Shown: positions 1,790 through 27,036, numbered from the stretch's first letter. The stretch is DNA of 34,147 bases from a bacterium (GCA_016936735.1 JAFGXH010000084.1:1-34147), one strand, 5' to 3'. Translations and numbers: made by a program. The notes: generated by a model from the letters alone, not told the origin.

Positions 1790-1798
1790 AATCTCCCC

Positions 1799-2386
1799 CT
1801 AAGCCTTTTTGATTTTATTTACAATTGCAATTAAAAAACCTAAAGCAATAAATGCTCCTGGAGGCATTACAAAAAGTAACATTGTATTTGCATTCTCTGG
1901 TAGAAATCTAAAATCGAAAATAGAACCACTTCCTAAAATCTCTCTAACAGCTCCTAAAAGGGTTAATGCTAAAGTAAATCCCAATCCCATTCCAATTCCA
2001 TCTATAATTGATGCAATTGGTGAATTTTTTGATGCAAATGCCTCTGCACGACCAAGAATAATACAGTTTACAACAATAAGAGGAATAAATATTCCCAATT
2101 GAGAGTGAAGTGCTGGTAAATATGCAGCCATTGATAAATCAACTATTGTTACAAAAGAGGCAATAATAACAATAAAGGCTGGAATTCTAACTTTGTCAGG
2201 AATTAGTGATTTTACTGATGATACAACTAAATTTGATGCAATTAATACAAACATTGTTGCTAAACCCATACCTAAACCATTTTTAGCAGATGTTGTAACT
2301 CCCAATGTTGGACACATTCCTAAAAGAAGAACAAAAACTGGATTCTCTTTTATTATCCCTTTGGTAAACTCTTTAATAATACTCAT
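1799..2386 (-). CDS. rnfE: Rnf electron transport complex subunit RnfE (RsxE)
   Basis: A 195-aa polytopic membrane subunit, paralogous to RnfA and inverted relative to it in the complex. It starts with the family N-terminus and has C25 in LLGMCPTLG and C108 in IVVNCIILG, the positions equivalent to C25 and C113 of RnfA. The conserved GRAEAFA follows the second cysteine. Its start overlaps the stop of rnfG by 4 bp (ATGA type), indicating translational coupling. Length is slightly below the enterobacterial RsxE (about 230 aa) but typical of shorter RnfE proteins. No defects are seen. Confidence 0.97.
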
Positions 2387-2952
2387 TGTTTACCCCCTTT
2401 TTTTAAACCATTAAATGCTCGTTGAACAGCATCACCAAATGCCCTTGAACTTATTGTGGATGCTGTTATTGCATCAACATCACCACCATCTTTTTTTACT
2501 TTTACATTGAAATTATCAAGATTTTTACCATTAAATTGATTTTTAAAAGAGTCTTTCTCCATTTTACTTCCTAAACCTGGAGTCTCTTTATGCTCCAATA
2601 CTGATATATTATTAATTGTATCATCTGGTAAAAATCCAATCATTAACCAAAATTCACCACTAAATCCCTTTTTTGTAAAGGTTTTTATAGCTGTTCCAAC
2701 TAAAATACCATCTTTTTTAGCTGGATAGAACTCTAATCCATCAAAACCCTCTACTGTATATTTTTCAGCATCTGGGTTATTATTGAATAAAGGTACAACC
2801 TCTTTAATTGCTGCAAGTTTTTTCTCTAATTTTGATTTTGTTATTGGGCCAAGTGTTGCCTTATATGTAAAACCAAGAGATAGTGCAGCAATTGCAGATA
2901 TAAGTGTTAAAGATAATAACATACCAACTAAAGTGGACTCTTTTTTAGCCAT
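2383..2952 (-). CDS. rnfG: Rnf complex FMN-binding subunit RnfG (RsxG)
   Basis: A 189-aa protein with one N-terminal membrane segment (about residues 9-29) and a periplasmic FMN-binding domain. [10 protein letters not shown] (121-130) is the conserved loop of the domain. D160-AITAST, with T166, fits the ApbE flavinylation motif (D-x-x-S/T-G/A-A/S-T), so T166 is the predicted covalent FMN site. The motif has Ala and Ser where Gly and Ala are most common, a tolerated variation in my recollection. The start overlaps the end of rnfD by 8 bp, and its binding site GGGGAGGTG lies inside the last rnfD codons. The apbE gene upstream would supply the flavin transferase. Confidence 0.96.
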
Positions 2953-3952
2953 TTTTCACCTCCCCAAAACGTTTTGGTTTGAATGCAATATTGATTAGTG
3001 GAACAAGTGCATTCATTATTAGTATAGCAAAAGAGACTCCCTCTGGATATGCACCAAATAGACGGATTAATATTGTGATTAATCCTGCACCAGTACCAAA
3101 AAATATCATTCCCAATTTACTCATAGGAGATGTTACCATATCAGTTGCCATAAAAAAAGCTCCAAGAAGAATACCTCCAGTTAAAAGATGGTATAGTGGA
3201 TCTACATATTTTTCTGGTTGAATTAACCAAAATACTCCACTAAAAAGGGCAACAGTTCCCAAAAAAGAGATTGGTATATGCCAAGTTATTATTTTTTTAT
3301 ATAAAAGATATAATCCACCTACAATAAGAGCTAAAGCAGAAACCTCACCAACAGAACCACCTATCGCACCAAAAAGTGCATCTAAATGAGATGGTGCATG
3401 TTTCATAATTTCAGCAATTGGTTCACCTTTTGCAACCCCCTCTTTTATTAATCCAAGGGGTGTTGCACCAGTTAAAGCATCTGGAATAGATAACATTGTT
3501 CTTGTATCAAGTGGTCGTGGCCAACTTGTCATCTCAACTGGAAATGAGACAAGAAGAAAAACACGCCCAACTAATGCTGGATTAAATGGATTTTTCCCTA
3601 ATCCACCAAATGAGAGTTTTGCAATTCCAATTGCAACTAAAGCACCTACTCCAACCATCCAAATGGGAAGAGAGCTTGGTAGATTGAATCCAAGAAGAAT
3701 ACCTGTGACAATAGCAGAACCATCTTTTACTGTTGACTCAATATTAAGGAGAAATTTCTGAATTAAATATTCAAATATTACACAGAATATAACTGAAAAT
3801 ATTACAACTTTTAGTGCTCCAATACCATAAAACCATGCTGAAGCCAAAAGAGCTGGAAGCATTGCTATAACAACACCATACATAATTGACTCAATGGAGT
3901 CTTTACCCTTTATATGTGGTGAGTGTGAAATTATTAGTTGTGATTGACCCAT
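2945..3952 (-). CDS. rnfD: Rnf complex subunit RnfD (RsxD)
   Basis: A 335-aa inner-membrane subunit of the NqrB/RnfD family with about ten membrane segments. The covalent flavin motif is DALTGATPLGL at residues 158-168, with T164 the predicted FMN attachment site. The conserved LGKNPFNPALVGR lies at 118-130, and GAFFMATDMVTSP is present in the C-terminal half. Together with RnfG it carries electrons across the membrane in current models. It lies 15 bp after rnfC and overlaps rnfG. The length and all visible motifs are normal. Confidence 0.97.
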   Translation of the reverse strand: MGQSQLIISHSPHIKGKDSIESIMYGVVIAMLPALLASAWFYGIGALKVVIFSVIFCVIFEYLIQKFLLNIESTVKDGSAIVTGILLGFNLPSSLPIWMVGVGALVAIGIAKLSFGGLGKNPFNPALVGRVFLLVSFPVEMTSWPRPLDTRTMLSIPDALTGATPLGLIKEGVAKGEPIAEIMKHAPSHLDALFGAIGGSVGEVSALALIVGGLYLLYKKIITWHIPISFLGTVALFSGVFWLIQPEKYVDPLYHLLTGGILLGAFFMATDMVTSPMSKLGMIFFGTGAGLITILIRLFGAYPEGVSFAILIMNALVPLINIAFKPKRFGEVKNG

Positions 3953-3967
3953 TTTTATCCTCTTAAA

Positions 3968-5308
3968 CTATTTTTGTACCCTTTTTCTTCTAAGTGTATT
4001 AACCTCACCTTTACCAACTCTTATAATATCTAAAAGAGGTCTATTTGCTGGGCAAGTATAGCTACAGGAACCACACTCAATACAATCCATAATTCCCTCT
4101 TTTTCAGATGATTCAAATAGTTTTCTATTTGCTAAATTTTCAAGTAGATAAGGAGCAAGACCCATTGGACAAACCATTGTACAACGTGCACATCTAATAC
4201 AATTTTTTGAAGTTTTTCTGGAGGCCTCTTTTTTATCAATTAAAAGAATTCCAGATGTTCCTTTTGTTACTGGTGCAGATAGATTGCTTAATGCTTTTCC
4301 CATCATTGGACCACCATTAATAACTTTTGCAACTGTTTCAGGAAGACCACCAACAGCCTCAATTAGAGATTCAATAGGGGTTCCAATTCTTACAAGAAAA
4401 TTTGATGGCTCTTTTACACTATCACCTGTTACAGTTACAACTCTCTCTATAAGTGGTTTATTTTTATAAAGTGCTTCATAAACTGCAAAAGCTGTTCCAA
4501 CATTTTGAACAACACAACCAACCTCAATTGGAAGTTTTCCAGATGGAACCTCTCTTTTAATAAGAGCATCAATAAGTTGTTTTTCACCACCTTGAGGATA
4601 TTGAACTTTTAAAGGAACAACCTCTACTCCAGAGTAGTTTTTTGATAGTTTTTGAAGATGTTCAATTGCATCTTTTTTATTATTTTCGATACCAATTAGT
4701 GCTTTTTTTGTATTTAAAGTTTTCATCATGATGGAGATTCCTTTAAGAATCTCATCTCCTTTCTCTAACATTAAACGATGATCTGATGTCAAATATGGTT
4801 CACACTCTACACCATTAATAATAAGATACTCTGCTGTTTTTCCTTCTGGAACACTCATTTTAACATGGCTAGGAAAAGTTGCTCCACCTAAACCAACAAT
4901 TCCAGCCTCTCTCATTTTCTGTTTTACCTCTTCAGGAGAGAACTCTTTTGTTGTGTTTGGATCTGAATCACTTATATTATCGCACCAAATCTCCTCATCT
5001 GCTCTATCAATAACAATAACTTTTTTAGGATATCCAGAGGAGTCTACAATCTCATCAATTTTAGCTATTTTTCCTGTAATACTTGAGTGTATATTAGCTG
5101 AAATAAAACCCTCTCCTTTTGCTATAAGTTGACCAGTTTTAACATTTTCACCTTTTGCAACAAGAACTGTTGCAGGAGCACCAATATGTTGTGAAACAGG
5201 TATATAGACAGTTTTTGGAAGTGGAAAATTTTTAATAGGAGAGTTTGCAGATAGTTTTCCCTCTTTTGGATGAATTCCACCTAATTTAAATGTTTTTAAT
5301 ATACTCAT
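3968..5308 (-). CDS. rnfC: Rnf complex subunit RnfC (RsxC), NADH-binding, 2x[4Fe-4S]
   Basis: A 446-aa peripheral cytoplasmic subunit thought to be the NAD(H)/FMN site of Rnf. The N-terminal barrel-sandwich region starts [21 protein letters not shown] (139-150) is the Rossmann-like NADH/FMN-binding loop shared with NuoF, followed by NGVECEPY. The C-terminus has two ferredoxin cluster motifs, C370-x2-C373-x2-C376-x3-C380-P and C409-x2-C412-x2-C415-x3-C419-P. It is a compact form that lacks the long Ala/Lys-rich C-terminal extension of E. coli RsxC (about 740 aa). It overlaps rnfB by 4 bp. Confidence 0.97.
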
Positions 5309-6297
5309 TTCTCCTCCACAACCAACTCTTTTTTATCTGAGTTATTTTCACTATCAGATGCTTTAGTTTTATTCTCATTGTTATTCATGTTTTTTTGAGT
5401 GGAGTTTGGAGTGTTAAGTGAATCTTTTTTGTTTAACTCAATTTTCTCTTTTTTATCTGTAGATTCAATTTTTTTTGGTTCGGGAAAATTTATAGCAAGA
5501 ATAGCACCAGTTGGACAAACAGGAACACATTTTTTGCAAAGTTTACATTTTTCAAAATCGATATATGCTAAGTTATTTTCAAGAACTATAGCATCAAAAG
5601 GACACTCTTTAACACATTTTCCACAACCAATACATGCAGCAGAACAGTTTTTCTTTGCAACAGCCCCTTTCTCTTTATTAATACAAGAAACAAAGACTCT
5701 TTTATTTTTCTTGCCCTTATTCCTAAGCTCAATAATTGAGCGAGGACAGGCAACAACACAATTATTACAAGCAGTACATTTCTCTTCATCAACAATAGGA
5801 AGACCTGTTTCGGAAGAGATTTTAATTGCATCAAAAGGACAAGATGTAACACAATCTCCAAGTCCAAGACAACCATTTGGGCAACCACCTGGTCCTGCAT
5901 AAAGCATGTGAGCAGATTTACAGCTTGAAACTCCATCAAATTGATTTTTAGCTGGAGAGTTTTTAAAAGAGCCAGAGCATCTAACAACAGCAACCATTGG
6001 CTCTTTCTCTTGTGCTGTTAGGCCCATTATCTCTGCAATCTGTTTCATTAACTCATTTCCACCAACTGGGCAGAAAAAACCATCAAGAGATCTGTTTTTA
6101 ACAATTCCCTCTGCAAAATTTCTACATCCTGCATAACCACATCCACCACAGTTTGCAGATGGAAGAATCTCATTCACCTCATCTATTTTAGGATCCTCTT
6201 CAACTTTAAATTTTTTTGCTGCACCAAAAAGTAGAACAGCAGCAAAAAAACCGATTCCCCCAAGAGAGACAAGGGATGCTACAATAATAGTGTCCAT
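5305..6297 (-). CDS. rnfB: Rnf complex ferredoxin subunit RnfB (RsxB), long form
   Basis: A 330-aa protein with one N-terminal membrane segment (about 4-26) and a cytoplasmic multi-cluster part, the entry point for electrons from ferredoxin. The N-terminal cluster domain has C50, C53, C58 and C76 ([10 protein letters not shown]). Then come C139/C143/C149/C153 (the GLGDC-CPFDAI type typical of long RnfB) and three ferredoxin motifs at C174-C184, C222-C232 and C251-C261. Residues 275-330 form a charged, Asn/Lys/Glu-rich low-complexity tail with no fold that I recognise. The start has AGGAG six bases upstream. It heads the rnfBCDGEA block, 106 bp after rseC, with a palindrome in that gap. Confidence 0.96.
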
Positions 6298-6321
6298 TTG
6301 TAACTCCTATACACCTTTATC

Positions 6322-6338
6322 ATTTGAAAATTTCAAAT
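6322..6338. promoter_or_regulatory. Palindrome between rseC and rnfB (operator candidate)
   Basis: ATTTGAAAATTTCAAAT is a perfect 8-1-8 inverted repeat 24 bp upstream of the rnfB start. No T-run follows on either strand, so it does not look like an intrinsic terminator. It could be a binding site for a dimeric regulator or an mRNA hairpin that separates rseC from rnfB expression. No known regulator box was matched with confidence. Confidence 0.35.
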
Positions 6339-6403
6339 CAAGATATCTATTTTAAAAAAATATAAATAAAATTTATCTAACTATTTTAAGTTACGCAAAA
6401 TTT

Positions 6404-6844
6404 TTAAAGGGGATGAGATATATTTTCATCACCAGCCTTTCTAATTATAAATTGGAAAGTATTTTTCCATCTTTTTCTTAAAAAATATAAAGATAAATAG
6501 TATATTACTAAAAACAGAAGAGACACAACTGCAGCAATAAGCTCTGTAAATATAGCAGATGATATAAGTAAAGCAGTTATAACAACAATAAAGGGTAATA
6601 GATATCCTAAAAATAGAGCTAAAAAACCAAGTTTTTGCTCCATTTGAACAATAACTTTATCACCTTTATTAAAAATCTCTCCATTCGTTGCTTTTGCCTC
6701 AATCACTTTCTCTTTTAAATCAGCAATAGAGCAGGCACCTTTTGCATGACAGGAGGCACAGGCAGATTTTGTAATAACAGAGACAATAATTTTATCATCA
6801 ATAATATTTTCAACCACACCAAAATGTTCAATAACCTCTCTCAT
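6404..6844 (-). CDS. rseC: RseC/MucC family protein
   Basis: A protein of 146 aa (147 if begun at 6847) of the SoxR-reducing system protein RseC family, which in many bacteria is encoded next to rnf/rsx genes. The N-terminal soluble part has C30-x2-C33-x5-C39 (numbered from 6847), the conserved cysteine cluster of the family. Two adjacent membrane segments follow at about 73-100 and 103-123, then a basic C-terminal tail. The second of two consecutive ATG codons (6842-6844) is the better start, because AGGA stands 5 bases before it and only 2 before the first. It precedes rnfB by 106 bp, as in Bacteroidetes-type rseC-rnfBCDGEA loci. Its molecular role with Rnf is not settled. Confidence 0.88.
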   Translation of the reverse strand: MREVIEHFGVVENIIDDKIIVSVITKSACASCHAKGACSIADLKEKVIEAKATNGEIFNKGDKVIVQMEQKLGFLALFLGYLLPFIVVITALLISSAIFTELIAAVVSLLFLVIYYLSLYFLRKRWKNTFQFIIRKAGDENISHPL

Positions 6845-6892
6845 CATAATCCTTATCTTAAAAAACTAGATATTTATCAATAACTGTATTGT

Positions 6893-6920
6893 TAGCAAAT
6901 AATATTATGGAAATTTGCTA
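6893..6920. promoter_or_regulatory. Inverted repeat upstream of rseC-rnf (operator candidate)
   Basis: TAGCAAAT (6893-6900) and ATTTGCTA (6913-6920) are perfect 8-bp inverted arms separated by 12 bp, 46-76 bp upstream of the rseC start. No T-run follows on the minus strand, so a protein-binding site near the operon promoter is more likely than a terminator of apbE. The spacing of about two helical turns suits a dimeric repressor or activator. Confidence 0.35.
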
Positions 6921-6956
6921 TAATAAATACAATAATTACCATTTTACACTCTTTAG

Positions 6957-6978
6957 TTTGAATATATTTTTATTCAAA
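6957..6978 (-). other. A/T-rich hairpin just downstream of apbE
   Basis: TTTGAATA and TATTCAAA form an 8-bp stem around TATTTT, 22 bases after the apbE stop. It might be a weak terminator or 3' mRNA-stabilising hairpin for apbE, but no T-run follows on the minus strand. Confidence 0.25.
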
Positions 6979-7000
6979 TAAAATAATATAGCTGAAGTAT

Positions 7001-7966
7001 TTATGGAAAATACTCTTTTAAATTAAGAGACTTTCCAGATAAAAGATATAGTTTAACATTAAACTTTTTCATAATCTTTTTTATGAAATCTTCATCATAA
7101 TGACGAACTGATATTGCTGTTGCAAGAGTATCTGCAATAGTTGCATTATCAGCAATAACTGTGACTGAATGAGCTCCATCAACTGGATATCCTGTTTTAG
7201 GGTCTATAATATGTGAATATTTTTTCCCATCTTTAATAAAATATCTCTCATAGTCACCAGAAGTCGCACTACTATAACACGATTTATTATCAAATTCAAT
7301 TATTTTGAAAAATTCATTTTTTTTAAAAGGGTCTTTTATTCCCAATTTCCAATTTTTTCCCCTTTTTTTTCCACAAACAAGAATATCACCACCATAATTT
7401 ATTAAGTAGTTTTTTTGATTATATTTTTTTAAAATAAGAGAGGTTTTATCAATTGCAGCACCTTTTGCAACTCCACCAACATCAATTTTTACCCCCTCTT
7501 TTTTTGTTGAAACACTATTTTTATTACAATCTACATTTAATAAATCAATACCAATTAGTTTTTTATATTTTATAACATCACTATCTGTTGGAACACTCTC
7601 TTTTTCAATATCCCATAAAAAACCCTCACTTTTATATGTTATATCAAATGCTCCATCTGTATCTTTTGCAAATTGAATAGATTTCTCAATAATTTGACAT
7701 AATTCATTGGATATTTGAATCTCTTTTTGATATCCAACCCTATTTATTTCAGATATTTTACTTTCAGGATTATGATAGCTTGCCTCTTTTTCAAACTCTC
7801 TTATATAATTTTTAATCTCCTCCTCTAATTTGAGGTTTTTAGAGCCCTCATAAGTAATAGATAGTGATGTTCCCATTCCCCAAAAGGATATTGTTTGAAA
7901 CTCTACCTCTCTTTTTGAACAGGAGATAAAAGTAAAGAGTATTAAAAAAAACACTATTTTTTTCAT
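7001..7966 (-). CDS. apbE: FAD:protein FMN transferase ApbE (lipoprotein)
   Basis: A 321-aa flavin transferase that moves FMN from FAD onto Thr in (S/T)GA(T)-type motifs; here the obvious clients are RnfG T166 and RnfD T164. The N-terminus is a lipoprotein signal with lipobox FISC (C16), so it acts on the periplasmic face. Family motifs are present: DGAFDIT (104-110), KIDVGGVAKGAAID (160-173), INYGGDILVCG (189-199), the HIIDPKTGYPV loop (252-262) and IADNATIADTLATA (271-284), with metal-binding Asp/Thr near 279-283. AGGA lies 5 bases before the start. It is 154 bp upstream of rseC on the same strand, so co-expression with rnf is plausible, though the gap holds two inverted repeats. Confidence 0.96.
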   Translation of the reverse strand: MKKIVFFLILFTFISCSKREVEFQTISFWGMGTSLSITYEGSKNLKLEEEIKNYIREFEKEASYHNPESKISEINRVGYQKEIQISNELCQIIEKSIQFAKDTDGAFDITYKSEGFLWDIEKESVPTDSDVIKYKKLIGIDLLNVDCNKNSVSTKKEGVKIDVGGVAKGAAIDKTSLILKKYNQKNYLINYGGDILVCGKKRGKNWKLGIKDPFKKNEFFKIIEFDNKSCYSSATSGDYERYFIKDGKKYSHIIDPKTGYPVDGAHSVTVIADNATIADTLATAISVRHYDEDFIKKIMKKFNVKLYLLSGKSLNLKEYFP

Positions 7967-15740: not shown

Positions 15741-16028
15741 GCATAAGAAAAGAGTTATAAGGCATAGGAAAAGAGTTCTAAGGCATAAGAAAAGAGTTAT
15801 AAGGCATAGGAAAAGAGTTCTAAGGCATAAGAAAAGAGTTCCAAGGCATAAGAAAAGAGTTCCAAGGCATAAGAAAAGAGTTCCGAGGCATAAGAAAAGA
15901 GTTCCAAGGCATAAGAAAAGAGTTCCAAGGCATAAAAAAAGAGTTCCAAGGCATAAGAAAAGAGTTCTAAGGCATAAGAAAAGAGTTCCAAGGCATAGGA
16001 AAAGAGTTCTAAGGCATAGGAAAAGAGT
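15741..16028. repeat. Minisatellite: 13 full 21-bp units plus a partial unit
   Basis: Units begin GCATAAG or GCATAGG, continue AAAAGAGTT and end CCAAG, CTAAG or ATAAG. Boundaries fall at 15741, 15762, 15783 and every 21 bp to 16014, where the last copy breaks down. Units 1-2 equal units 3-4, showing a 42-bp higher-order duplication, and unit 13 equals units 2 and 4. The + strand is purine-rich. Because 21 is a multiple of three, the minus strand stays open from 16078 to 15797 and would encode a repeating heptapeptide ELFSYAL; units 1 and 3 carry a TAA in that frame. Confidence 0.95.
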
Positions 16029-16219: not shown

Positions 16220-17149
16220 TCAGAATGTATATTTAACACTAGCTGATGTTGAGACTCCAACAGCATCAAAACCAGTTGTATAATTTCCTGAAACATATGC
16301 AAGAAAAGAGAAGTGTTTAAGTAAGAAGTAGTACTCTATTCCCAATAAACCACCTGCCTGAATTTTCATTCCATCCATATCAAGTGATTCATCAATCATA
16401 AAAACTCCACCACCTAAAGAGATGTGAAAATTAAACCTATCAGTGTGATATAAATGATAATTTAATGCTAAACCAGCTCCCTTTCCATTTAAATCACTTG
16501 AGTATAAAATTCCCTGTTCATCTTTAACTTTTCCACCAATCATCATTGATGAGGCATAAATCTCTCCAGAGAATTTTTCTGAAAAATCAAAACCAAAAGA
16601 GATTTTATACTCTCCACCAATTAAATCCTGTTCAGCTAACTCTTTTCCATTAACTTTAGGAGAGAATAGCATTAGTGTTCCATAAGAGAGTTTAAAATAA
16701 CCACCACGTTCAATATAGCTTATTGGTTTAGTAACAATTTTAACCTCCTCTTTTACAGTGGTTGTTTTTTTGTTAGCATTTGGATCAACCTCTTCTATAT
16801 CAAATTTCATCTCCTCTTGGGTTATTTTTCCTTCACTTTTAAGTTCTCCCTCATCAAAAGAGAATCCCTCTTCTGTTGCAAAATCCATACCACCTTCAGA
16901 ACCAAAATCTATACCAGAAGAGTCACCACTATTTGATACTGCAGTTGTGTTACTATTTTCACCCTCTTCTGTTTTAGTTTCTGCTGTTACCTCCTCTGTT
17001 TTCACAGAATCAGATTTATCATCCTTTTTGGTTTCAGTAGTTGTCTCTTCATCACCAAATGTCATTCCCTCATCACCAAAGTCCATTTGAGCCATTAGTG
17101 TAAATGGAGAAAAAATTAGTATGAATATAAAAAGATAAATATATTTCAT
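16220..17149 (-). CDS. Secreted acidic-linker protein with C-terminal outer-membrane-barrel-like domain
   Basis: A 309-aa protein of unknown exact function. It has a signal peptide (residues 1-20, cleavage near LMAQ), then an acidic low-complexity segment (about 21-125) rich in Asp, Glu, Thr and Ser with repeated FGDE/FGSE/FATE-like motifs. The C-terminal half (about 145-309) shows alternating hydrophobic patterns of beta strands and ends in KYTF with a terminal Phe, the usual outer-membrane assembly signal. It is the last gene of the Glt-like block, 15 bp after the FHA/PglI-like gene, with GAGG before the start. By position it may be the outer-membrane component of the machine, as GltA, GltB or GltC are in myxobacteria; that is inference, not a sequence match. 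Confidence 0.75.
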   Translation of the reverse strand: MKYIYLFIFILIFSPFTLMAQMDFGDEGMTFGDEETTTETKKDDKSDSVKTEEVTAETKTEEGENSNTTAVSNSGDSSGIDFGSEGGMDFATEEGFSFDEGELKSEGKITQEEMKFDIEEVDPNANKKTTTVKEEVKIVTKPISYIERGGYFKLSYGTLMLFSPKVNGKELAEQDLIGGEYKISFGFDFSEKFSGEIYASSMMIGGKVKDEQGILYSSDLNGKGAGLALNYHLYHTDRFNFHISLGGGVFMIDESLDMDGMKIQAGGLLGIEYYFLLKHFSFLAYVSGNYTTGFDAVGVSTSASVKYTF

Positions 17150-17164
17150 GAATACCTCAAAATA

Positions 17165-19084
17165 TTAGTTTGAGTGGAAATTAAATGGGAATATGACAAG
17201 AGCAAATCCACCTCCCAATGGTTCAGGAAAACGCCACTTTTTAATACGTTGAACAAGACAACTTTGAACAGCATTATCTTTTAAAGTTCCCCCATCAATA
17301 TTAGCTGCAACAACCTCACCCTGTGGATTAATTTTCCATTTTACAGTTATTGAACCAGCAAGTTCTGGTTTTCTTGTTAACTCTTTTTCATAACAGTAAC
17401 GAACCTCCATAAGATGTTTGTTAACAACTCTTTGAATCTGTTCTTTTGTTAAGTTTCCTGTTATAGAACCGCTATCAGTTGTGATTTTCAGTTTTCTATT
17501 AACTTTTTTATTACTAATATTGGAGATACCAATATTACCTCCACCACCCCAATTACCACCACCTGTAGCTGGACCACCAGCTCCAAGACCTGTACCACCA
17601 CCACCAGGACCTGTACCACCACCACGAATTCCAGGTGCACCACTATTTCCTGATGATATATCAGAGTTATCACTTAAGCGAAGGTCATCATCTTGGATTC
17701 CACCATAAGTTCCACCTCCACCTAAACCACCCATACTTTTACCAACTTTAAAAATACCAGTAGAACGAACAATTCTTTTATCTTGAACCTGTTTTTGTGT
17801 TAAACCAGCAACATTAAAATTTGTTGCATTAAATTCAACATTCTTTGAATTTTTGTTATTTGCTGTAAACTCTGTTTTTGCTAATTTAGTATCTGTAACA
17901 TCAAATTTAACAACAGGTTTTACTTTCTCCTCTTCAGGTGTATCAAGAATTACTCGTGCATATCTATCTGGAATCTCATTCAATTGCTCAATAGAGAATG
18001 ATTCAATATCTGGTGGCATTAAAAACAGCAATGCAAGTAATGCTAAGTGAAACAGGGTTGAAACAACATTGAATTTTAAATTAAAAGAGTCAAGTAATCC
18101 AAAAAGTGAAAATTTTGATGATGATTCCAAAACAGGAACAGATGATATTTCAAATCTATGATCTCCAGTTTCAAAAGCTATTTTGGTTTTATGAATTAAT
18201 CTTATTGCTCCATGATACTCACTTTTTGTTGCTGCTTTATGAGCCTGTAATAACTCCTCTAAGTTATAAGACTCAGAACCCTCAATATATTTAACACCAT
18301 TTAAAAGAAAATATACATTAAACCCCTTTTCATTTGAGGGATCACTAATTGTAAATGATTTATTATTTGGTAAATTCTCTTTTGTAACATAAAAATCATC
18401 ATTAGGATCTTCACCAATAGTTACAATTTTTGGTGTTTTATAAAGAATGGCAGACATCATATTTCCCTGCCAATAATGTTTTATCTCAAGCCCCTTTCCA
18501 ACAACTTTTTGAAGAAGAATTCCATCCTCTGGCTCTAAGTTAAAATATGGATTAGAGATTCTATCCTCTGCTCTACGTTGAATCTCTGAATGAGATTCAG
18601 TTGAATTATCCAATAGTGAGTTAGCAGATTTTACTGATGAGGATGGAATTGTAGATATAACCTCTCTAATTCCGCTTGTTTCATCATTTTCAAATGGTAA
18701 ATCCTCATCCTCTAAATCATCTGTTGGTTCTGTTGAGATAAGAGAAAGATCTTTTTGTGGGAAAAATTTAAGGGTCCAATCACCAATAGTTATCTCATCC
18801 CCCTCTTTTAACTCTATTTTTCCTGAAAAATCTGTTCCATTATAGAGTGTTTTAGAAGCTCCCATCATCATTAATGAGAAAATACCTTCATGATTCTCTA
18901 TTGTTGAATGTAATCTAGGCATATCTGGGTCATCAATTCTAATATGAGATGTACTCATTCTACCAATTCTTAATATTCCCTGATAGGCTATTTGAGAATC
19001 TTTTTCTGGTGTTTCACAAAACAAAAGTAACTGTTCAACTACACCACCCTTAATTAATTGAACAGATATAAATGATTGATCCAT
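17165..19084 (-). CDS. FHA-TM-glycine-rich-AgmX/PglI C-terminal domain protein (GltG-like)
   Basis: A 639-aa protein bridging cytoplasm and periplasm. The N-terminal FHA phosphothreonine-binding domain (about 38-108) has RIGR, SHIRIDD, RLHSTIE and NG at the expected places. A second domain (about 205-315) resembles a degraded FHA or linker. One membrane segment lies at 338-357, then a periplasmic stretch with a Gly-rich linker (about 450-518). The C-terminus (540-637) is the AgmX/PglI TonB-like domain, with VRYCYEKEL (C564), GSITVKWKINPQGEV and SCLVQRIKKWRFP (C609), a possible disulfide pair. This architecture matches myxobacterial GltG/PglI, which is thought to connect the inner-membrane motor to periplasmic and outer-membrane parts. 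AGAGGAAG precedes the start. Confidence 0.87.
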   Translation of the reverse strand: MDQSFISVQLIKGGVVEQLLLFCETPEKDSQIAYQGILRIGRMSTSHIRIDDPDMPRLHSTIENHEGIFSLMMMGASKTLYNGTDFSGKIELKEGDEITIGDWTLKFFPQKDLSLISTEPTDDLEDEDLPFENDETSGIREVISTIPSSSVKSANSLLDNSTESHSEIQRRAEDRISNPYFNLEPEDGILLQKVVGKGLEIKHYWQGNMMSAILYKTPKIVTIGEDPNDDFYVTKENLPNNKSFTISDPSNEKGFNVYFLLNGVKYIEGSESYNLEELLQAHKAATKSEYHGAIRLIHKTKIAFETGDHRFEISSVPVLESSSKFSLFGLLDSFNLKFNVVSTLFHLALLALLFLMPPDIESFSIEQLNEIPDRYARVILDTPEEEKVKPVVKFDVTDTKLAKTEFTANNKNSKNVEFNATNFNVAGLTQKQVQDKRIVRSTGIFKVGKSMGGLGGGGTYGGIQDDDLRLSDNSDISSGNSGAPGIRGGGTGPGGGGTGLGAGGPATGGGNWGGGGNIGISNISNKKVNRKLKITTDSGSITGNLTKEQIQRVVNKHLMEVRYCYEKELTRKPELAGSITVKWKINPQGEVVAANIDGGTLKDNAVQSCLVQRIKKWRFPEPLGGGFALVIFPFNFHSN

Positions 19085-19092
19085 GCTTCCTC

Positions 19093-19344
19093 TTATAATT
19101 CATCAACTGAGTTTGATAATTCTGGTAAAAAGTCTTCACGTGGCCTTATTTGTGTTTTTGCCTTAGATGTATTCAAAGAGTCAATTCTTGATCCTGCTGG
19201 TTTTGTTTTTGTTCCAGAGATATCTGCAGCATCAAAGTCAAAAACTTTTGTATTGTCATCAGATCCACCCTCTTCATCAGCAAATAAGAGTGTACCAAAG
19301 GAGAAAAGTGATAAAATTAAAAAAATCAATCCAAGTTTTTTCAT
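19093..19344 (-). CDS. Small secreted protein of the Glt-like operon
   Basis: An 83-aa protein with a signal peptide (1-22, cleavage near LLFA-DE) and a short, mostly polar mature part. A KVFDFDAADISGTKTKP segment lies at about residues 33-49 and is followed by a basic/acidic tail. It looks unstructured. Its ribosome site TAGGAGGG overlaps the stop of the preceding TPR lipoprotein gene, and it ends 8 bp before the FHA/PglI-like gene, so it is firmly part of the operon. Its position between GltE-like and GltG-like genes is where myxobacteria carry the small gltF, but I cannot confirm homology by eye. Confidence 0.75.
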   Translation of the reverse strand: MKKLGLIFLILSLFSFGTLLFADEEGGSDDNTKVFDFDAADISGTKTKPAGSRIDSLNTSKAKTQIRPREDFLPELSNSVDEL

Positions 19345-19353
19345 AACACCCTC

Positions 19354-20574
19354 CTACATATTTTCCATCTCTTTCATATCTTTTATCATTTGTTCACAAT
19401 GTTGGATATTAGTTGAGATGTCTATTGTTCCATTATGTTTTTTATACTCCTTAAATGCTTTAATCGCCTCTTCTGGTTTTCCCATGTATTTTTGATAGAG
19501 AATTCCCTTATTGTAATAGGCATCTTTATAATTAGATGCAATAGCGATTATTTTATCATACTCTTCCAACGATTTTTCAAAATTTTTTGCCATTCTTAAA
19601 GATATAGCATAAAGATTTCTATAAAGAACATATGATGGGTATTTCTCAACAAGTTTTGCTAAATATGTTGTGGCCTGATTTCCAGCATTATGTTTCATAA
19701 AAAGTATAGATAAAACAAGATTTGCATCAATATTATATGGATCTAATGATAGAGCCTGTTTATAGGCAGCCATCATTTTTGAAGACTCCTGCATTGTTTC
19801 AAATAGTTTTGCAAGAATAACATATAAGGATGCTTTTTTTGTTGGTTCTTGAGAGTAACTAATTGCTAAATTTATTGTTTTCTCAGCAAGAGCATATTTT
19901 TTTGTTAAAATATAGAGATATGCTAAAGATCTGTATGCAGGAATACTTAACTGATTAAATGAGAGAATCAATCTTATTTGAACCAACGCTTCACTATATT
20001 TTTGAGACATAATAAGTAAAACAGCATAGTTACTTAACAGATTTTCATCCACTTTTTTATCTGTTTTTAGTTTAGATATAAGTGGTTTATATATCTCAAT
20101 AACCTCTGAAATTTTATTAAGTTTATATCCTAAATATGCCAAATTGGTAAAAGCCTTATTTAAAGGATCTTTTTTAACTAATTTTAGGTAGTAATCATAA
20201 GAGTTTTGATATTGCTCTAAAATAAGAGAGAGTGTTGCAATATTAAACATAATCTCAGAGACACCCTCAATTTTTCTATTAATTTCTGAGAGTTGAGATA
20301 TATACTCTAATGGTTGAGCTGATTGAGAGTTTAAATCTATCTCATATTTTTGCATTATAGAGTTAAACTGCTCAATAATTTCATCTTTTGAGATTTGAGG
20401 TTCTTTCTGTTTCTCAGCCTCCTCTTGCTGTTTCTTTAAGAGCTCTTGTCTCTCTTTTTCAGCTTTCTCTTTCATCTCAAACTCTTTTTTATCATCCTTT
20501 TTCTTCTCTACTTTTGTTGTTCCACAAGAGACTACAAAAATAGCCAATATAGCATATAAGACAACTTTTTTCAT
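19354..20574 (-). CDS. TPR lipoprotein (GltE/AglT-like)
   Basis: A 406-aa protein with a lipoprotein signal (lipobox VVSC, C17). A highly charged Lys/Glu coiled-coil segment follows (about 24-62), then a series of tetratricopeptide repeats from about 95 to the end. Clear repeat consensus residues include NIATLSLILEQYQNSYDYYL, AYRSLAYLYILTKKYALAEK and DAYYNKGILYQKYMGKPEEA. Lipid anchoring and TPRs suggest a periplasmic scaffold at a membrane. The start overlaps the end of the 1061-aa TPR gene by 4 bp, and the small secreted gene follows after 9 bp. Lipoprotein TPR plus context suggests the counterpart of AglT/GltE of Myxococcus; this is an inference from architecture and order. Confidence 0.85.
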   Translation of the reverse strand: MKKVVLYAILAIFVVSCGTTKVEKKKDDKKEFEMKEKAEKERQELLKKQQEEAEKQKEPQISKDEIIEQFNSIMQKYEIDLNSQSAQPLEYISQLSEINRKIEGVSEIMFNIATLSLILEQYQNSYDYYLKLVKKDPLNKAFTNLAYLGYKLNKISEVIEIYKPLISKLKTDKKVDENLLSNYAVLLIMSQKYSEALVQIRLILSFNQLSIPAYRSLAYLYILTKKYALAEKTINLAISYSQEPTKKASLYVILAKLFETMQESSKMMAAYKQALSLDPYNIDANLVLSILFMKHNAGNQATTYLAKLVEKYPSYVLYRNLYAISLRMAKNFEKSLEEYDKIIAIASNYKDAYYNKGILYQKYMGKPEEAIKAFKEYKKHNGTIDISTNIQHCEQMIKDMKEMENM

Positions 20575-23500
20575 TTTTTGTTCCCTTCTTTTTCAATTTT
20601 TACAATTGGTTGCTCTTTTTCAAAAAGAATATCTCTAAAATCAACAGTTGTATACTGTTCCTCAAAATTAGCTTTAAATGCTGCTGGATCAATTTTTAGC
20701 ATCATCTCTATTGATTTATCAACCCATTCATTAAAAATCTCATTTTTCATTGCAATCTCATAGCATTTAAAATAGGCATTAAAAGCCTCTTGTTCTAAAG
20801 GATAAACATACACCTGCATTAAATCCTGTTTATACATCTCTTTTTGATCTGCTGTTAATTTTGGAGGAATTGGAGAATTTTCTATATCTTTTGCAAAATC
20901 ATAAGTTAGAGATGCAATTTTATAAAAATATGCAATAGACCAATATGCACTTCCAAACTCTCTTGCAGCATCATTATAATCTTTTGTTAATTTCTGTTTA
21001 AGCTCTATTTTCTTTTTCAAAGCAGCAGCCATTTTTGCTTCAGGAAGCTCTAGTTTTATTGACTTAAATGAGTTATAAAGTTTTTCTAACTCATTAAACT
21101 GTTGCTCTGCTAAAAGTTTTTTAGATGTTTTTAAAAGCTTCTTCTCTCTATCTTTTAATTTTTCATAAAAATCAAAACCATCACGCTGTTTTTTAGCTGC
21201 AGAACTATCACGTCCTAATTTCTGATAAGCATTTGCTATTTTAAATTGAAGCTCTATTTTTGAATCAAGAGTTAAAAATGGAAAGTAGTCTTTTTCAAAT
21301 TTATCCCAAAAAGATAGTGCTGATTTCCAATCTCCAATTTTTTCTATATTTTCACCCTGTTTTAAAACCCATCTCCAAGCCTCTTTACTTTTCATTTTTT
21401 TACTTCGAATATAGAGGTCTATTAACTCATTAGCTTTTTTTAGTGTATCAGACTCCTCAATAGCCTCATTAAAATCAATAGCAGTTGTTAATGCTATTTG
21501 AGCATTCTTATCTTTTGGATATTTTAAATAGTATTTCTCATACAAATCTGCAGCATCTTTAAATCTTGCAATACCTTGATAGTTTTGAGCAAGAAAGAAA
21601 AGAACATCCTTCATCTCTTTTCTATCCTCAAACTCTTTTTTAGATACCATCTCCTCTCTAACTCTGATAGTATCTTGAATATATCCTGCATTTTCATACA
21701 TTAGAGAGCTGTTATAAAGAGAGTAAAATGCTCTTTGTGATTTTGGATATTTTTTATAAAAGTCATAATATGCCTCTGCAGCCTCAATATATGTTTTTTT
21801 CTCCTCAAGCTCTTTTGGAGACATAAATGCCAAAGCCTCAACATTATCTTGAAGTTGAGCAATAAATTTAGCTGAGAGATGTTTTTTATTTTTAATAAAA
21901 TCATTTATCCAATACAACATTTTTGTATACTCTTTTCTTGTGTTATAAACATCAAGAAGAAGACTTGCTGCAGGTTCATAGGCATCAGATCCAACATATT
22001 TTGTAACAATCTCTTCGAAAACTGGAATAGATTTTTCAAAATTGCATGCCTCATAATATATTTGAGCAGAGTTAAATTTTGCAGTTGCTAACTCTTTTGA
22101 TTCGGGATTATGCTCTATAAAAATCTCAATTAGTTTCACAAATTGATCTTGACGTCTTGTAAGTTTTTGAGGTTTTGGATCTTTTTGTTTATGACATTGT
22201 CCCTGTTGAGATGATTTAGATTTTGCCTTCTCCTCTTTAATAAAATTTGAGTAGATAGCAAGTGCATTTGTAACAGCATCTTCAACAAGATTTGCTGTTT
22301 TCTTTCCATCTTTACTTGTTATAATGTCAATATAAACATCAATTGCATTTTGTGGTTGAAACAGTTGTTCATCAAGAAGTACCGCATATTGAAAAAGCAT
22401 CTGATAATAGTCATCATAATCTCTAAAAAGCTTTTGATACTCATTATAAAATTTAACAGCAATTTTCAAATCAGTATCATTTTTTGTGTCCTGAGCCTGT
22501 TTATGGTATGATGTTGCTAACTCTTTAATCATTCCCTCTAACTCATTTCTTAATTTATCAAACTCTTTATCACCTTGATACTGTTTATCTATTTTTTGTA
22601 GAAATTCACTTGCCTCAATTGCAGAGACTATTAAGTTTTTAATCTTTCCAAGAGATATTGATGCCTCAAGAATAGAGACATGAAATCTAAACATTTTAAT
22701 CTCATCAACCTCTAACTCTAAAAGACGTCTATAAACAAATATAGCCTCCTCATATTTACCCTGTCTATCTTTATAAACAGTTCCTAATTTATCAAGATAC
22801 TCTAAGTGAGATGGATTACCAAAAAGTTTTTCAAAAACAACCTCAGCTTTATCAGGAGAGGCAAATTGAGAATAGATAAAAACTAAGTCCATTTTTACTT
22901 GATCTATAAACTTCTCATTTGGATCACCACCCCTTAAAATCTGAACAAACATATCAAAAGCCTTTTTAGGCTCTTGTAGGTTAAATTCACACCATCCTAA
23001 TTTATAATAGGCATAGTTATAAAGCTCTGAATCCTGATACTGAACAACTTTTGAGTATGCTTTTTTCGCTGTTTCCATATCATCTCCAACGAAATAGTAC
23101 TCTCCAAGAGCAAGAAATGCATCTGGAATAAATTGTGAGTCAGGATAATCTTTTGCAAGCTGTTTATATATTTTAATAGACATTGTTGATTGTTTCATCT
23201 CCTCAAGAGTATGAGCCCAAGCAAACAAAACTGCATCTACTGCCTCATATGCAGGAAATGTTTTATAAATAAGTGCATAAGTATCTACAGCTTTTTGAGT
23301 TGTTTCCATAGAGCGTCTTAAGTAAGACTCTTTCTCTTTTTTAAACTCCTCCTCTTGAGCTTTGTCTTTTGGTTCAACATCATCAAAAGACATACCTTTT
23401 AACCAAAGTCCTTTAGCTTTTTTACGATACATTTCAGCTAATTTTAGCATATATGCAGGTTTTTGAGTATCCTCATCATCCATATCTTCAAGAAGCTCTT

Positions 23501-23756
23501 CTGTATTTATAATCTGCTTTTCAACAAGCTCTAATTTCTCAATCTCTTTCTTTTTTATGAAATCCTCTTGAGTGATTTTTTTCTTTGTTCCCTCCTCTTT
23601 TTTATCTCTTTTAAAAACTTTAAGTTCTGCACCCTTTTTTTTCTCTCCACCCATTTTAAGTTCAACATTCTCAACTTTATTGAGTTTAATATCCTCTTTT
23701 TGTGCAAAAACTAAGCTTGCAGTTAAAATAGTTAGTAGGACGGTAAAAAATCTCAT
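20571..23756 (-). CDS. Very long secreted TPR protein (GltD/AgmU-like)
   Basis: A 1061-aa protein with a signal peptide (about 1-18, SLVFA-QKED), a charged region (20-100) and then TPR-type helical repeats over most of its length. Examples are AYYKLGWCEFNLQEPKKAFD, AKFNSAQIYYEACNFEKSIP and ALTTAIDFNEAIEESDTL. Length and composition resemble AgmU/GltD, the long periplasmic TPR protein of the gliding machine, which is about 1200 aa in Myxococcus. GAGGAATGAG precedes the ATG. The gap to the upstream TPR gene is 80 bp and the downstream overlap is 4 bp, so it belongs to the same transcript or has its own promoter in the gap. The family role is inferred from architecture and neighbours. Confidence 0.85.
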   Translation of the reverse strand: MRFFTVLLTILTASLVFAQKEDIKLNKVENVELKMGGEKKKGAELKVFKRDKKEEGTKKKITQEDFIKKKEIEKLELVEKQIINTEELLEDMDDEDTQKPAYMLKLAEMYRKKAKGLWLKGMSFDDVEPKDKAQEEEFKKEKESYLRRSMETTQKAVDTYALIYKTFPAYEAVDAVLFAWAHTLEEMKQSTMSIKIYKQLAKDYPDSQFIPDAFLALGEYYFVGDDMETAKKAYSKVVQYQDSELYNYAYYKLGWCEFNLQEPKKAFDMFVQILRGGDPNEKFIDQVKMDLVFIYSQFASPDKAEVVFEKLFGNPSHLEYLDKLGTVYKDRQGKYEEAIFVYRRLLELEVDEIKMFRFHVSILEASISLGKIKNLIVSAIEASEFLQKIDKQYQGDKEFDKLRNELEGMIKELATSYHKQAQDTKNDTDLKIAVKFYNEYQKLFRDYDDYYQMLFQYAVLLDEQLFQPQNAIDVYIDIITSKDGKKTANLVEDAVTNALAIYSNFIKEEKAKSKSSQQGQCHKQKDPKPQKLTRRQDQFVKLIEIFIEHNPESKELATAKFNSAQIYYEACNFEKSIPVFEEIVTKYVGSDAYEPAASLLLDVYNTRKEYTKMLYWINDFIKNKKHLSAKFIAQLQDNVEALAFMSPKELEEKKTYIEAAEAYYDFYKKYPKSQRAFYSLYNSSLMYENAGYIQDTIRVREEMVSKKEFEDRKEMKDVLFFLAQNYQGIARFKDAADLYEKYYLKYPKDKNAQIALTTAIDFNEAIEESDTLKKANELIDLYIRSKKMKSKEAWRWVLKQGENIEKIGDWKSALSFWDKFEKDYFPFLTLDSKIELQFKIANAYQKLGRDSSAAKKQRDGFDFYEKLKDREKKLLKTSKKLLAEQQFNELEKLYNSFKSIKLELPEAKMAAALKKKIELKQKLTKDYNDAAREFGSAYWSIAYFYKIASLTYDFAKDIENSPIPPKLTADQKEMYKQDLMQVYVYPLEQEAFNAYFKCYEIAMKNEIFNEWVDKSIEMMLKIDPAAFKANFEEQYTTVDFRDILFEKEQPIVKIEKEGNKK

Positions 23757-23836
23757 CTCATTCCTCTTTTAGTGATTGTAAAACTAAAAAAAATTAATAA
23801 CCAACAAATTTATGAAATAATACATTAGTGATTTTA

Positions 23837-25414
23837 CTATTTCTTTTTACATTGAGATACTATTGGATATAAATAGTATCCTAGCTCATCTTTCCAATAC
23901 TCCCCTTCAAAAGGCCAGTAAATATGGTCTTCAGGAGTTGATAATATAATTTTCTCTTTATCTAACTCAAAATACTCATTCTCATTGATTTTAAGAGAGA
24001 TAAGCTCTTTTGTAACTGTATCCTCTTTTATCTCAAGAATTGCTTGTGTAATAACCCTTGCATCTGTCAAAAGTTTTTTAATTGTATTAACAACTCTTTT
24101 GAATCTACTAAGAGATATCTCTCCAATCTCTGTTTCAATATTTTTTTTCTCATCATCTAGAATTTTTTGTATTGATTTCGCAAATGGAGTATTAAGAAAA
24201 ACAGGTTTTTTCTTTTTGATTAAAGCAATCTCTTTATCAATTGTTTTCATCTCTACAAATTTCTTTTTAATAGATTTATCCTTCAAGGCAATGTTAAGAA
24301 CCCATTGAAGTTTTGGATCAGATGTCTCTTTTCTTGATTTTGAAATAACATTATAAAACTCAAAGGGTGTTTTTGCAGATTTGATAAATTGTGTTAATGT
24401 TTTTCTAACAGGACGATACTCATCTAGAAATTTTTTAACAATTTTATTTGACTCTTGATAATCACAATTATTGTAATAAATAAGAGCCTCAATTATATAT
24501 TTTTCTGGATAAAAGGCTTTGTAAAATGATGGAGAACGTAATGTAACTAAATTACCAAGAGATTTTGCATAGTCACCTTTCATTAAAAATGCCCAACTAG
24601 ATTCAAAAATCCCATCAAGCCACTGTTCTGAAAAACGTGGAATTTTATTAAAGTATAATATTGATAAATCATAATCTTTTTGCTGATAATAGACTCTAGC
24701 AATACCAATAATTGAGAGTTCAACAAGTTTTAAATGCTCTAATTCATTTAAGATTTTTCCTTTATAATCAATAATCTCCTTAAAATTCTCGATTGAAACA
24801 TTTCCTTTTCCCAAACGAGCATATAATACACCTAAAAGATATCTTGATTTAAGATAATCGGAACTCTCTTTCGGTAAAAGTTTTAAATATTGAACAGCCT
24901 TAGCAAAATTCCCTTTTTGATAATTATATTTTCCTGCTAAAAAATATAGACTTTGTTTATATTTTTGAGGAACAACTTTTGGATCATATTGGGATATATT
25001 TGCAAGAAGTTTCTCATTTTGAATATACTTTGACAAATCGGAAAGATATTTCAATGCTGCATTAAAAAAAGGAGATTGATCTCCATCTTTAATTGCAAGA
25101 TCAAAATAGAAAAGAGCAAGATAGTAAAACTTCTCTTTTCTCATAGCTTTTCCAAGATTAAAATATGCCTCATTGTAACTTGCTTGATACTCTGGATTCT
25201 CAATAACTTTATAAAACTGATTTGCAGCACTTAAATATTTCCCCTTTTCATAGGCTTTTTTTCCAAGTTCAAGCATTTTTCTTGCTTCTGGTTGCTCTTC
25301 AAAAACCTGTTTTACCTCTTCAGAGTCAAAATTAAACTCATCATTTGTAAAATCCATTGAGTATATTGATGAATTTAAAAGTAGTGATAATACTAAAATA
25401 TAGACATTACGCAT
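23837..25414 (-). CDS. Secreted TPR protein
   Basis: About 525 aa from ATG 25414. The ATG at 25426 is less likely, because its ATGAGG supplies the ribosome site for the second ATG six bases on. The signal peptide is MRNVYILVLSLLLNSSIYS. TPR-like repeats follow from about residue 40 to 330, for example KKAYEKGKYLSAANQFYKVI, AYFNLGKAMRKEKFYYLALF and SLYFLAGKYNYQKGNFAKAV. The C-terminal 200 residues are Lys/Glu/Ile-rich and helical, possibly coiled-coil. It is the second gene of the block and lies 11 bp after the 223-aa gene. I do not recognise a specific orthologue; a periplasmic scaffold role within the Glt/Nfs-like machine is likely from context. Confidence 0.78.
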   Translation of the reverse strand: MRNVYILVLSLLLNSSIYSMDFTNDEFNFDSEEVKQVFEEQPEARKMLELGKKAYEKGKYLSAANQFYKVIENPEYQASYNEAYFNLGKAMRKEKFYYLALFYFDLAIKDGDQSPFFNAALKYLSDLSKYIQNEKLLANISQYDPKVVPQKYKQSLYFLAGKYNYQKGNFAKAVQYLKLLPKESSDYLKSRYLLGVLYARLGKGNVSIENFKEIIDYKGKILNELEHLKLVELSIIGIARVYYQQKDYDLSILYFNKIPRFSEQWLDGIFESSWAFLMKGDYAKSLGNLVTLRSPSFYKAFYPEKYIIEALIYYNNCDYQESNKIVKKFLDEYRPVRKTLTQFIKSAKTPFEFYNVISKSRKETSDPKLQWVLNIALKDKSIKKKFVEMKTIDKEIALIKKKKPVFLNTPFAKSIQKILDDEKKNIETEIGEISLSRFKRVVNTIKKLLTDARVITQAILEIKEDTVTKELISLKINENEYFELDKEKIILSTPEDHIYWPFEGEYWKDELGYYLYPIVSQCKKK

Positions 25415-25425
25415 AACATACCTCA

Positions 25426-26097
25426 TTAAGGAAAAAACAGACTAATTCCCATATAAACATTTAGAAAATGAGACATAACTTTTGCAGTCTGCTTCTCATT
25501 CCCAGAAACTATAATATTTTTGTAGTATTCTGTATATATATGGTCTTTTATCTCAAATCTAAATGCAAGCCAATTAGAAAGATAATATTTTTGTCCTAAT
25601 CCAATATTCATACTCAATGCATCTGTTACATTGGTTTTTAAATATCCTAACCCTGATGTTAAATATAACTCGAAGTATAGAATTGAGTAATCTAAAAATG
25701 AAAATTTACCAGATATAGGAATCCAAACGAAATTTAAATCCCCAAAATACTCATAAAAAGCTAATTCAGGAGCAGTATTACTCTCTTTTTGAAGCTCTTT
25801 TGCAGATGCTTGGTCTATTGTTCTTGAGACTCCACCAAAAAGCTCAATATAGAAATTCTCTTGAAAATGAAATCCAAGTGCCCCTGCAAAACTAAATGTT
25901 TGCAAAAAAGGGTCATTTATTGATATTCCAAATGCAGGAAAAAGCTCCACTTTATTTTTATTTTGGATTATCTTTTTTTGGATTACATTAATTGCATCGA
26001 TTTTCTCCTCTTTTTCAAGTTTTTGAACAGCAATATCCTCGCCCAAAAGAGATAAAGAGTTAATGAGGAAAAGGGCAAAAAACAGTATTCGGTTCAC
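25426..26097 (-). CDS. Small outer-membrane beta-barrel-like protein
   Basis: A 223-aa protein beginning with GTG at 26097; ribosome site only weakly visible (GGGGTAG). The signal peptide is at 1-19 (LSLLG-ED). A short charged stretch of about 35 residues follows. The rest, from about residue 50, shows alternating aromatic/hydrophobic strands such as FSFAGALGFHFQENFYIELFG and YSILYFELYLTSGLGYL. The chain ends with SLFFP, compatible with an eight-strand outer-membrane barrel of the kind seen in gliding-cluster proteins. It is the first gene of the block; its stop overlaps the region of the next gene's ribosome site. The exact family is not recognised. Confidence 0.7.
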   Translation of the reverse strand: MNRILFFALFLINSLSLLGEDIAVQKLEKEEKIDAINVIQKKIIQNKNKVELFPAFGISINDPFLQTFSFAGALGFHFQENFYIELFGGVSRTIDQASAKELQKESNTAPELAFYEYFGDLNFVWIPISGKFSFLDYSILYFELYLTSGLGYLKTNVTDALSMNIGLGQKYYLSNWLAFRFEIKDHIYTEYYKNIIVSGNEKQTAKVMSHFLNVYMGISLFFP

Positions 26098-26238: not shown

Positions 26239-26271
26239 ATAATGGGATATATTTATCTGTGTTTAGGGTTA

Positions 26272-27036
26272 ATGATGATAAAAGGGTTACAACCATTTCT
26301 ATTTGGTTCTTTATTTATTCTCCTATTCCTTACAATTACTACTACAATCTCATTTATTTTGATGAATAATGGATTAGTCTATCTTATTGGTGGTGTATTG
26401 GGTTCATTTGGTGGTGGATTTTTTATATATCGTTTTGCTAAACCAATATCACCATTAACATCCATAGTTATAGTTCCAATTATGTTTGCTGGTATTTTTT
26501 TAAGTGAATATATTGATATAAAAGTGACAAAAATTGAGTTTAATAGAACTCCATCATCTATCAAATTGGATACATCTATTAAAATATTTGAATTAATAGA
26601 TTACAAAATTTTAACTAAAATGATCTCAAAATATAGTTTTACAAGAAGAGAAAAAGATAGAGTTTTTCACAAAACAGTTTGTACAATTCCTATTGTTAAT
26701 AGTGATTGGGTTATAAATAATCAAATAGATCTTTTTGCAGTTTGTGAAAAAGATAATTGTAGTAGTTGTTTTTCGGAAAATCAAAAATTTGGAAAAATTG
26801 TTAAACTAGAAACATCAGATAATTTTAAATCATACATAGAATCAGTAAAAAATGGAGCTAAAAAAAACAGTTTGAATATAAAAATAGATAAGTTGATTTT
26901 TGTTGAATTAATTGAAGATATTGATCAATATGCCCAGAAAAAAAGAGATTCAGGCATAATAATATTTTTATCACTGCTATTTATATGGAATTTTATATCT
27001 ATATTCTCTTTTAAAAAAGGAAAAGAGAATATTTAA
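26272..27036 (+). CDS. Unknown membrane protein with a Cys motif
   Basis: A protein of about 254 aa (264 if begun at 26242); no family recognised. The N-terminal part carries three hydrophobic segments (QPFLFGSLFILLFLTITTT, LVYLIGGVLGSFGGGFFIY and SPLTSIVIVPIMFAGIFLS). A soluble part of about 140 residues follows, then a last membrane segment near the C-terminus (IIIFLSLLFIWNFISIFSF) and a basic tail. The soluble part contains CEKDNCSSC, a possible metal or disulfide site. The start at 26272 is preferred because the TATAAT at 26233 would put the transcription start at about 26245, and AGGG lies before the ATG pair. The gene is alone, divergent from the Glt-like block and convergent with rpoZ. 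Confidence 0.6.
   Translation: MMIKGLQPFLFGSLFILLFLTITTTISFILMNNGLVYLIGGVLGSFGGGFFIYRFAKPISPLTSIVIVPIMFAGIFLSEYIDIKVTKIEFNRTPSSIKLDTSIKIFELIDYKILTKMISKYSFTRREKDRVFHKTVCTIPIVNSDWVINNQIDLFAVCEKDNCSSCFSENQKFGKIVKLETSDNFKSYIESVKNGAKKNSLNIKIDKLIFVELIEDIDQYAQKKRDSGIIIFLSLLFIWNFISIFSFKKGKENI

Follow-up and report, generated by a model that had tools for sequence, protein, structure and literature searches.

A Glt-type envelope operon without a linked motor in an uncultured bacterium assigned to candidate phylum UBP6

What does a compact set of genes for outer-membrane barrels, tetratricopeptide repeat (TPR) proteins and a forkhead-associated (FHA) protein do in an uncultured bacterium, and what would power it? 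We analyzed the contig JAFGXH010000084.1 of assembly GCA_016936735.1 (positions 1-34147; this whole stretch of 34,147 nucleotides is called the window), in which seven such genes occupy positions 16220-26097. An earlier note, made from the sequence alone, had proposed that they encode a machine related to the gliding (Glt) and spore-coat (Nfs) systems of Myxococcus, possibly with a motor encoded elsewhere. The first proposal agrees with profile matches, with gene order and with phylogeny, and the second is borne out by two AglRQS-type motors that this genome encodes in separate operons. On balance, we read the operon as encoding the transducer of an Agl-Glt machine, which would span the envelope and has no motor of its own, most likely one for MglA-steered surface gliding. 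The host genome (G000; 3.59 Mb in 380 contigs, 93% complete, very AT-rich) is taken to be a metagenome assembly of candidate phylum UBP6, which is not known to have a cultured member, and not of Myxococcota.

The operon and its products

The seven open reading frames (ORFs) all lie on the minus strand in the order gltA/B-C-D-E-F-G-H (Table 1), with overlaps of 1 bp between A/B and C and of 4 bp between D and E, and gaps of 80 bp (C-D), 9 bp (E-F), 8 bp (F-G) and 15 bp (G-H). Ribosome sites of GAGG type stand before D, F, G and H, and a promoter scan did no better than on shuffled sequence. The same seven-gene order is intact in a second species (G001, 78-92% identity per protein) and in a second genus (G002, 37-67%). 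As the block recurs in this way while the flanks differ among the three genomes, except for one divergent neighbour, and as five of the seven products match profiles named for gliding, it is more than a chance assembly; a fortuitous neighbourhood was rejected on the conserved gene order and the profile scores.

Table 1. Operon products, their domains and the divergent neighbour, with positions in the window
Feature	Position	Strand	Evidence
GltA/B-type outer-membrane barrel, 223 aa, signal peptide	25426..26097	-	TIGR04565 OMP_myx_plus 1.2e-26, above cut-off
Predicted 8-stranded barrel of GltA/B, residues 50-222	25432..25950	-	AlphaFold
GltC, periplasmic TPR protein, 529 aa	23837..25426	-	NF033756 gliding_GltC 5.6e-85; trees
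GltD (AgmU) homologue, secreted TPR protein, 1061 aa	20571..23756	-	BLASTP 2e-56 to D protein of G055 Glt locus
GltE (AglT) homologue, TPR lipoprotein, 406 aa, lipobox VVSC	19354..20574	-	NF033758 gliding_GltE 6.3e-8, weak; lipobox; position
GltF/CglF, secreted, 83 aa, conserved G-x(3)-KP motif	19093..19344	-	NF033764 gliding_CglF 1.2e-6, below cut-off
GltG (PglI), 639 aa: cytoplasmic FHA, one transmembrane helix, Gly-rich periplasmic linker, AgmX/PglI tail	17165..19084	-	NF033760 gliding_GltG 3.1e-67
FHA domain of GltG, residues 39-101	18782..18970	-	PF00498 1.7e-9; alignment of 38 GltG
AgmX/PglI C-terminal tail of GltG, residues 545-636	17177..17452	-	NF033768 9.5e-31
GltH/CglE, 309 aa: signal peptide, long disordered acidic N-terminal part, barrel	16220..17149	-	NF033755 gliding_CglE 4.2e-18
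Predicted 8-stranded barrel of GltH, residues 150-308	16226..16702	-	AlphaFold, mostly confident
Divergent neighbour, 264-aa membrane protein, function not assigned	26242..27036	+	75% identical copy, same position in G001 (L042)

The FHA and TPR proteins fall within the Glt/Nfs family and not within unrelated systems. Pfam finds TPRs in three products, one of which carries a lipobox. GltC scores below the equivalog cut-off of its model (286 against 450 bits), as do GltG (228 against 650 bits) and, by a few bits, GltH (65.8 against a cut-off of 70). GltD matched no NCBIfam GltD model, and a profile of its family retrieved most full-length myxobacterial GltD proteins (1e-90 to 1e-145). For GltE, a general TPR lipoprotein model outscores gliding_GltE, and the family profile retrieves myxobacterial GltE. 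Of the gliding by type IX secretion in Bacteroidetes, the NCBIfam search showed in GltE a weak TPR match to PorW/SprE only, far under the cut-off of that model. The G-x(3)-KP motif of GltF is also present in GltF of the type I operons described below, in other UBP6 families.

The two proteins that the earlier note had called barrel-like are both predicted to form 8-stranded barrels, with a mean predicted local distance difference test (pLDDT) score of 79.5 for GltA/B and of 64.7 for GltH, the low value of the latter being due to its disordered residues 21-145. Their nearest solved structures in Foldseek searches were of the OmpW/OmpA type for GltA/B and OmpA-like for GltH, and PDB searches with GltG and GltC gave generic TPR or unrelated matches only. 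The FHA, transmembrane, Gly-rich and AgmX/PglI composition given for GltG likewise stands, the two end domains by profile matches and the helix and Gly-rich part as read directly from the sequence. Its FHA domain has M-P-R-L-H in place of the usual V-S-R-x-H, so that phosphothreonine binding may be changed, and two cysteines of the tail (C564 and C609) are invariant in all 38 aligned GltG.

Motors, phylogeny and related operons

Motor genes are absent from the window, as had been noted. Nine MotA/ExbB-family proteins are encoded in G000, of which two, on contigs C284 and C33, are followed by two ExbD genes. These two ExbB fall in an Agl-type clade together with the motors of Bdellovibrionota Glt loci and two motors from G055, a genome with a verified Glt locus, in a tree from a short search in which part of the clade is weakly resolved. 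Neither ExbB-ExbD-ExbD set stands alone, both being embedded in other Glt-like operons. The flanks fetched for 31 myxobacterial-type loci with a long GltG contained no motor genes in any case, which makes an unlinked motor the usual condition in this clade. The operon on C284 (L038, 3245-12911) is a further Glt-like operon with its own motor, in the order motor-F-G-barrel-C-D-barrel.

Though the host genome lies outside Myxococcota, the operon itself is of the myxobacterial type. The window's family groups with Myxococcota Glt in a GltC tree (support 89); a smaller, more careful GltC tree did not reject a single UBP6 clade (approximately unbiased test, p-AU 0.073). In a concatenation of C, D and G (2079 columns), the family lies inside the myxobacterial Glt clade beside the Glt of G055, with 99% support in the Shimodaira-Hasegawa-like approximate likelihood ratio test (SH-aLRT), and under LG+G4 with fewer rows a single UBP6 clade was rejected (p-AU 0.005; support for the enclosing clade 100%). 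Short searches underlie the trees with full support values, and some of the rows are long or of deviating composition. The Glt locus of G055 passes the equivalog cut-offs (GltG, 1033 against 650 bits; GltJ, 908 against 450) and also holds a 4123-aa GltI-like ORF. A paralogous set of the same genome, on its contig C28, is a probable Nfs by inferred identity and branches outside the clade holding the window's family and Glt, in a concatenated tree built without any named M. xanthus Nfs sequence. Pfam recognizes FHA in 29 of the 38 GltG; in the alignment, the domain is found in the window's family and in GltG of Myxococcota/Bdellovibrionota type, and is missing from other UBP6 and from type II GltG, a distribution that follows the same split as the concatenated tree. 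The simplest reading of this pattern, suggested by the sequences, is an exchange of gliding-type Glt between phyla, which we prefer to differential loss of duplicated systems.

Related operons occur in other families of UBP6. Most genomes of families f2-f4 whose contigs are adequate have two neighbouring operons. Type I has the A-C-D-E-F-G-H order of the window, with a GltG of about 470 aa that, in contrast to that of the window, has no FHA domain, and is usually followed by a murI-like gene and by the motor-bearing type II operon. The latter is a paralogous set that reads A-C-D-E-F-ExbB-ExbD-ExbD-G-H, likewise without FHA, the motor lying between F and G in UBP6; in many genomes the genes that come next encode a large BBP2-type barrel, OPX and Wzc. 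In the window's family, type II lies on contigs other than the window's: it is contiguous from A to G in G001 (A-C-D-E-F-ExbB-ExbD-ExbD-G), divided between C358 and C33 in G000, and in G002 reads D-E-F-ExbB-ExbD-ExbD-G followed by a BBP2_2 barrel, OPX (Poly_export 9.4e-16 plus SLBB), Wzc (GNVR, AAA_31 and Wzz) and Wzy_C. G055 has a type II relative with a large barrel and OPX on its contig C49. The locus tag of a gltD paralogue of M. xanthus (MXAN_1922, cluster G4) is close to those of its biosurfactant polysaccharide (BPS) export genes (MXAN_1915/1916), so that a linkage of this kind may exist there as well.

Compared with the Agl-Glt machine of Myxococcus (Luciano et al. 2011, PMC3169522), the window encodes homologues of GltA/B, C, D, E, F, G and H with close lengths (GltG, 639 against 640 aa; GltF, 83 against 89), an FHA-transmembrane-Gly-rich-tail GltG and membership of the same Glt clade (with G055), and in both cases the motor genes are elsewhere in the genome. 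It differs in that (i) Myxococcus has the two clusters G1 and G2 whereas the window has one contiguous operon, (ii) a single A/B barrel stands beside GltC instead of the GltA and GltB pair, with barrels of the same family on C43 and C298, (iii) GltI, GltJ and GltK are not in the operon, (iv) no free-standing aglRQS cluster was found in G000, and (v) the host is uncultured, very AT-rich and of another phylum. As the assembly is incomplete, it may simply lack a free-standing aglRQS, gltI or a further A/B barrel that the genome has. The Myxococcus Nfs complex (Wartel et al. 2013, PMC3858216) shares with the window the A-to-H set in a single cluster and a motor borrowed from elsewhere; it has both NfsA and NfsB, whereas the window has one barrel.

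Proposed working and rival explanations

In the working that we propose, a proton-driven AglRQS-type motor in the inner membrane would engage GltG, and its movement would travel through the periplasmic arm and tail of GltG, the TPR proteins GltC, GltD and GltE, and GltF until it reached GltA/B and GltH in the outer membrane; these barrels would then pull a surface adhesin or polymer along the cell. Acting in trans, the motor would most likely be the ExbB-ExbD-ExbD of the sister operon on C33, otherwise the C284 set. Of the gliding genes that the earlier note had named for a genome search, AglRQS-type motors and MglA are present and AglZ was not identified. MglA is encoded on C2 beside a Roadblock MglB and clearly matches a Myxococcus MglA query (2.7e-80), with an approximate identity of 64%; GltJ-like proteins with zinc-ribbon, GYF and tail are encoded on C25 (2.9e-26) and C88 (1.4e-21). 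With MglA, MglB and GltJ-like proteins present, MglA-steered surface gliding would be the most likely outcome.

Several findings weigh against this proposal. Curated cut-offs are reached by two matches, those to OMP_myx_plus and to the GltG tail model, and the scores for the Glt equivalogs fall short, as would be expected for a distant lineage. The best candidates for GltI are giant TPR ORFs (about 3.8 kaa) whose similarity is weak, and the search with a 2900-aa part of the 4123-aa G055 protein returned mostly TPR cross-matches; neither CglB nor AglZ was identified. PilT is encoded in G000, as in all 28 UBP6 genomes searched, and MglA may act with type IV pili. Furthermore, eight type I genomes of one genus, 96-99% complete and with members named from rumen or gut samples, have no detectable MglA and keep type I, and also type II where the contig allows.

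These eight genomes also speak for the chief alternative, in which the complex, driven by the motor of the sister operon, would move or shape a secreted surface polysaccharide (coat, capsule or slime) and not the cell, as in Nfs. The gene order of the window is that reported for nfsA-H, in a single contiguous cluster, type I and type II are neighbours in other UBP6 families, and type II joins the motor and a Glt-like set to a barrel, OPX and Wzz/tyrosine kinase in G002 and other UBP6 families, with Wzy in G002. However, the type I operon of the genomes without MglA is the one that lacks FHA and stands apart from the window's operon in the tree; the probable Nfs of G055 on C28 lies outside the clade of the window and Glt; and the window's family does have MglAB and GltJ-like genes. 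We therefore regard Nfs-like transport as a substantial possibility, although a clearly less probable one, and prefer gliding from the sequence evidence. The two might also be combined, in that the AglRQS-type motor, Glt-like scaffold and OPX exporter of type II would work with a window-type transducer as a motorised surface machine of UBP6, coupling polymer secretion to surface transport, and would in the window's family be joined with an FHA- and MglA-linked myxobacterial Glt exchanged between phyla, giving gliding; this wider scheme is speculative and, taken whole, doubtful.

A static or unrelated envelope role, in which the Glt core would join the membranes or assemble outer-membrane proteins with no directional transport, would suit an operon without a linked motor, and Glt/Agl cores whose function is not known are reported from bacteria not known to glide; the presence of Agl-type motors in the same genome and the retention of the transmembrane, Gly-rich and tail architecture by GltG make it quite unlikely. 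Energy coupling of TonB/ExbB or Tol-Pal type, with GltG as a plain TonB protein, is scarcely credible: a weak TIGR01352 match to a TonB tail (0.0017) and YbgF-type TPR matches would fit it, but the dedicated Glt profiles match far more strongly, and separate ExbB-ExbD-TolA-like and ExbB-ExbD-TonB-like sets, recognized by gene order and length, lie on C218 and C239. Profile scores and the conserved gene order led us to reject this reading of the operon.

A survey in 2011 placed the Agl/Glt core in Delta- and Gammaproteobacteria and Fibrobacter, and a fuller set only in Myxococcales and Bdellovibrionales (PMC3169522); we found no account of Glt machines in UBP6 in the literature. An A-to-H set, two Agl-type motors, MglAB and GltJ-like genes in an uncultured UBP6 bacterium thus widen the range of candidate gliders, and the type II operon, in which the motor is encoded together with an exporter of polysaccharide, offers concrete genetic ground for asking whether such motors move polymer.

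Paralogues, neighbouring genes and repeats

Further genes of G000 resemble parts of the machine. C333 carries another gene for an MglA-like GTPase (L083, 5028-5705), with 45% identity to the MglA query, and C164 encodes an orphan GltG paralogue with an FHA-like N-terminus (L034, 9851-11758), 50-54% identical to window GltG, with no other glt genes nearby. A 3837-residue TPR-rich open frame with weak GltI similarity is found on C218 (L250, 3319-14829). At L037 (4686-5918), a 410-aa lipoprotein, VWA/CglB-like by eye and with an empty Pfam scan, adjoins a second A/B barrel and a GltC paralogue; it is conserved in G001 and G002, and in G002 D- and E-like genes come next.

The divergent neighbour of the operon was not found near it in G002, so this linkage holds within the genus only. 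At the other side of the window, positions 1217-7966 carry Rnf-type genes together with ApbE-like (7001-7966) and RseC-like (6404-6847) ones, recognized by eye only. A 21-bp tandem array (15741-16028; 13.7 copies, 94% matching) lies about 190 bp downstream of gltH, and close copies of its unit are arrayed on two further contigs of G000, C81 and C241. A 24-bp tandem array stands at the end of C33 (L039, 5014-5185), where the type II operon breaks off, and such arrays may explain some of the contig ends.

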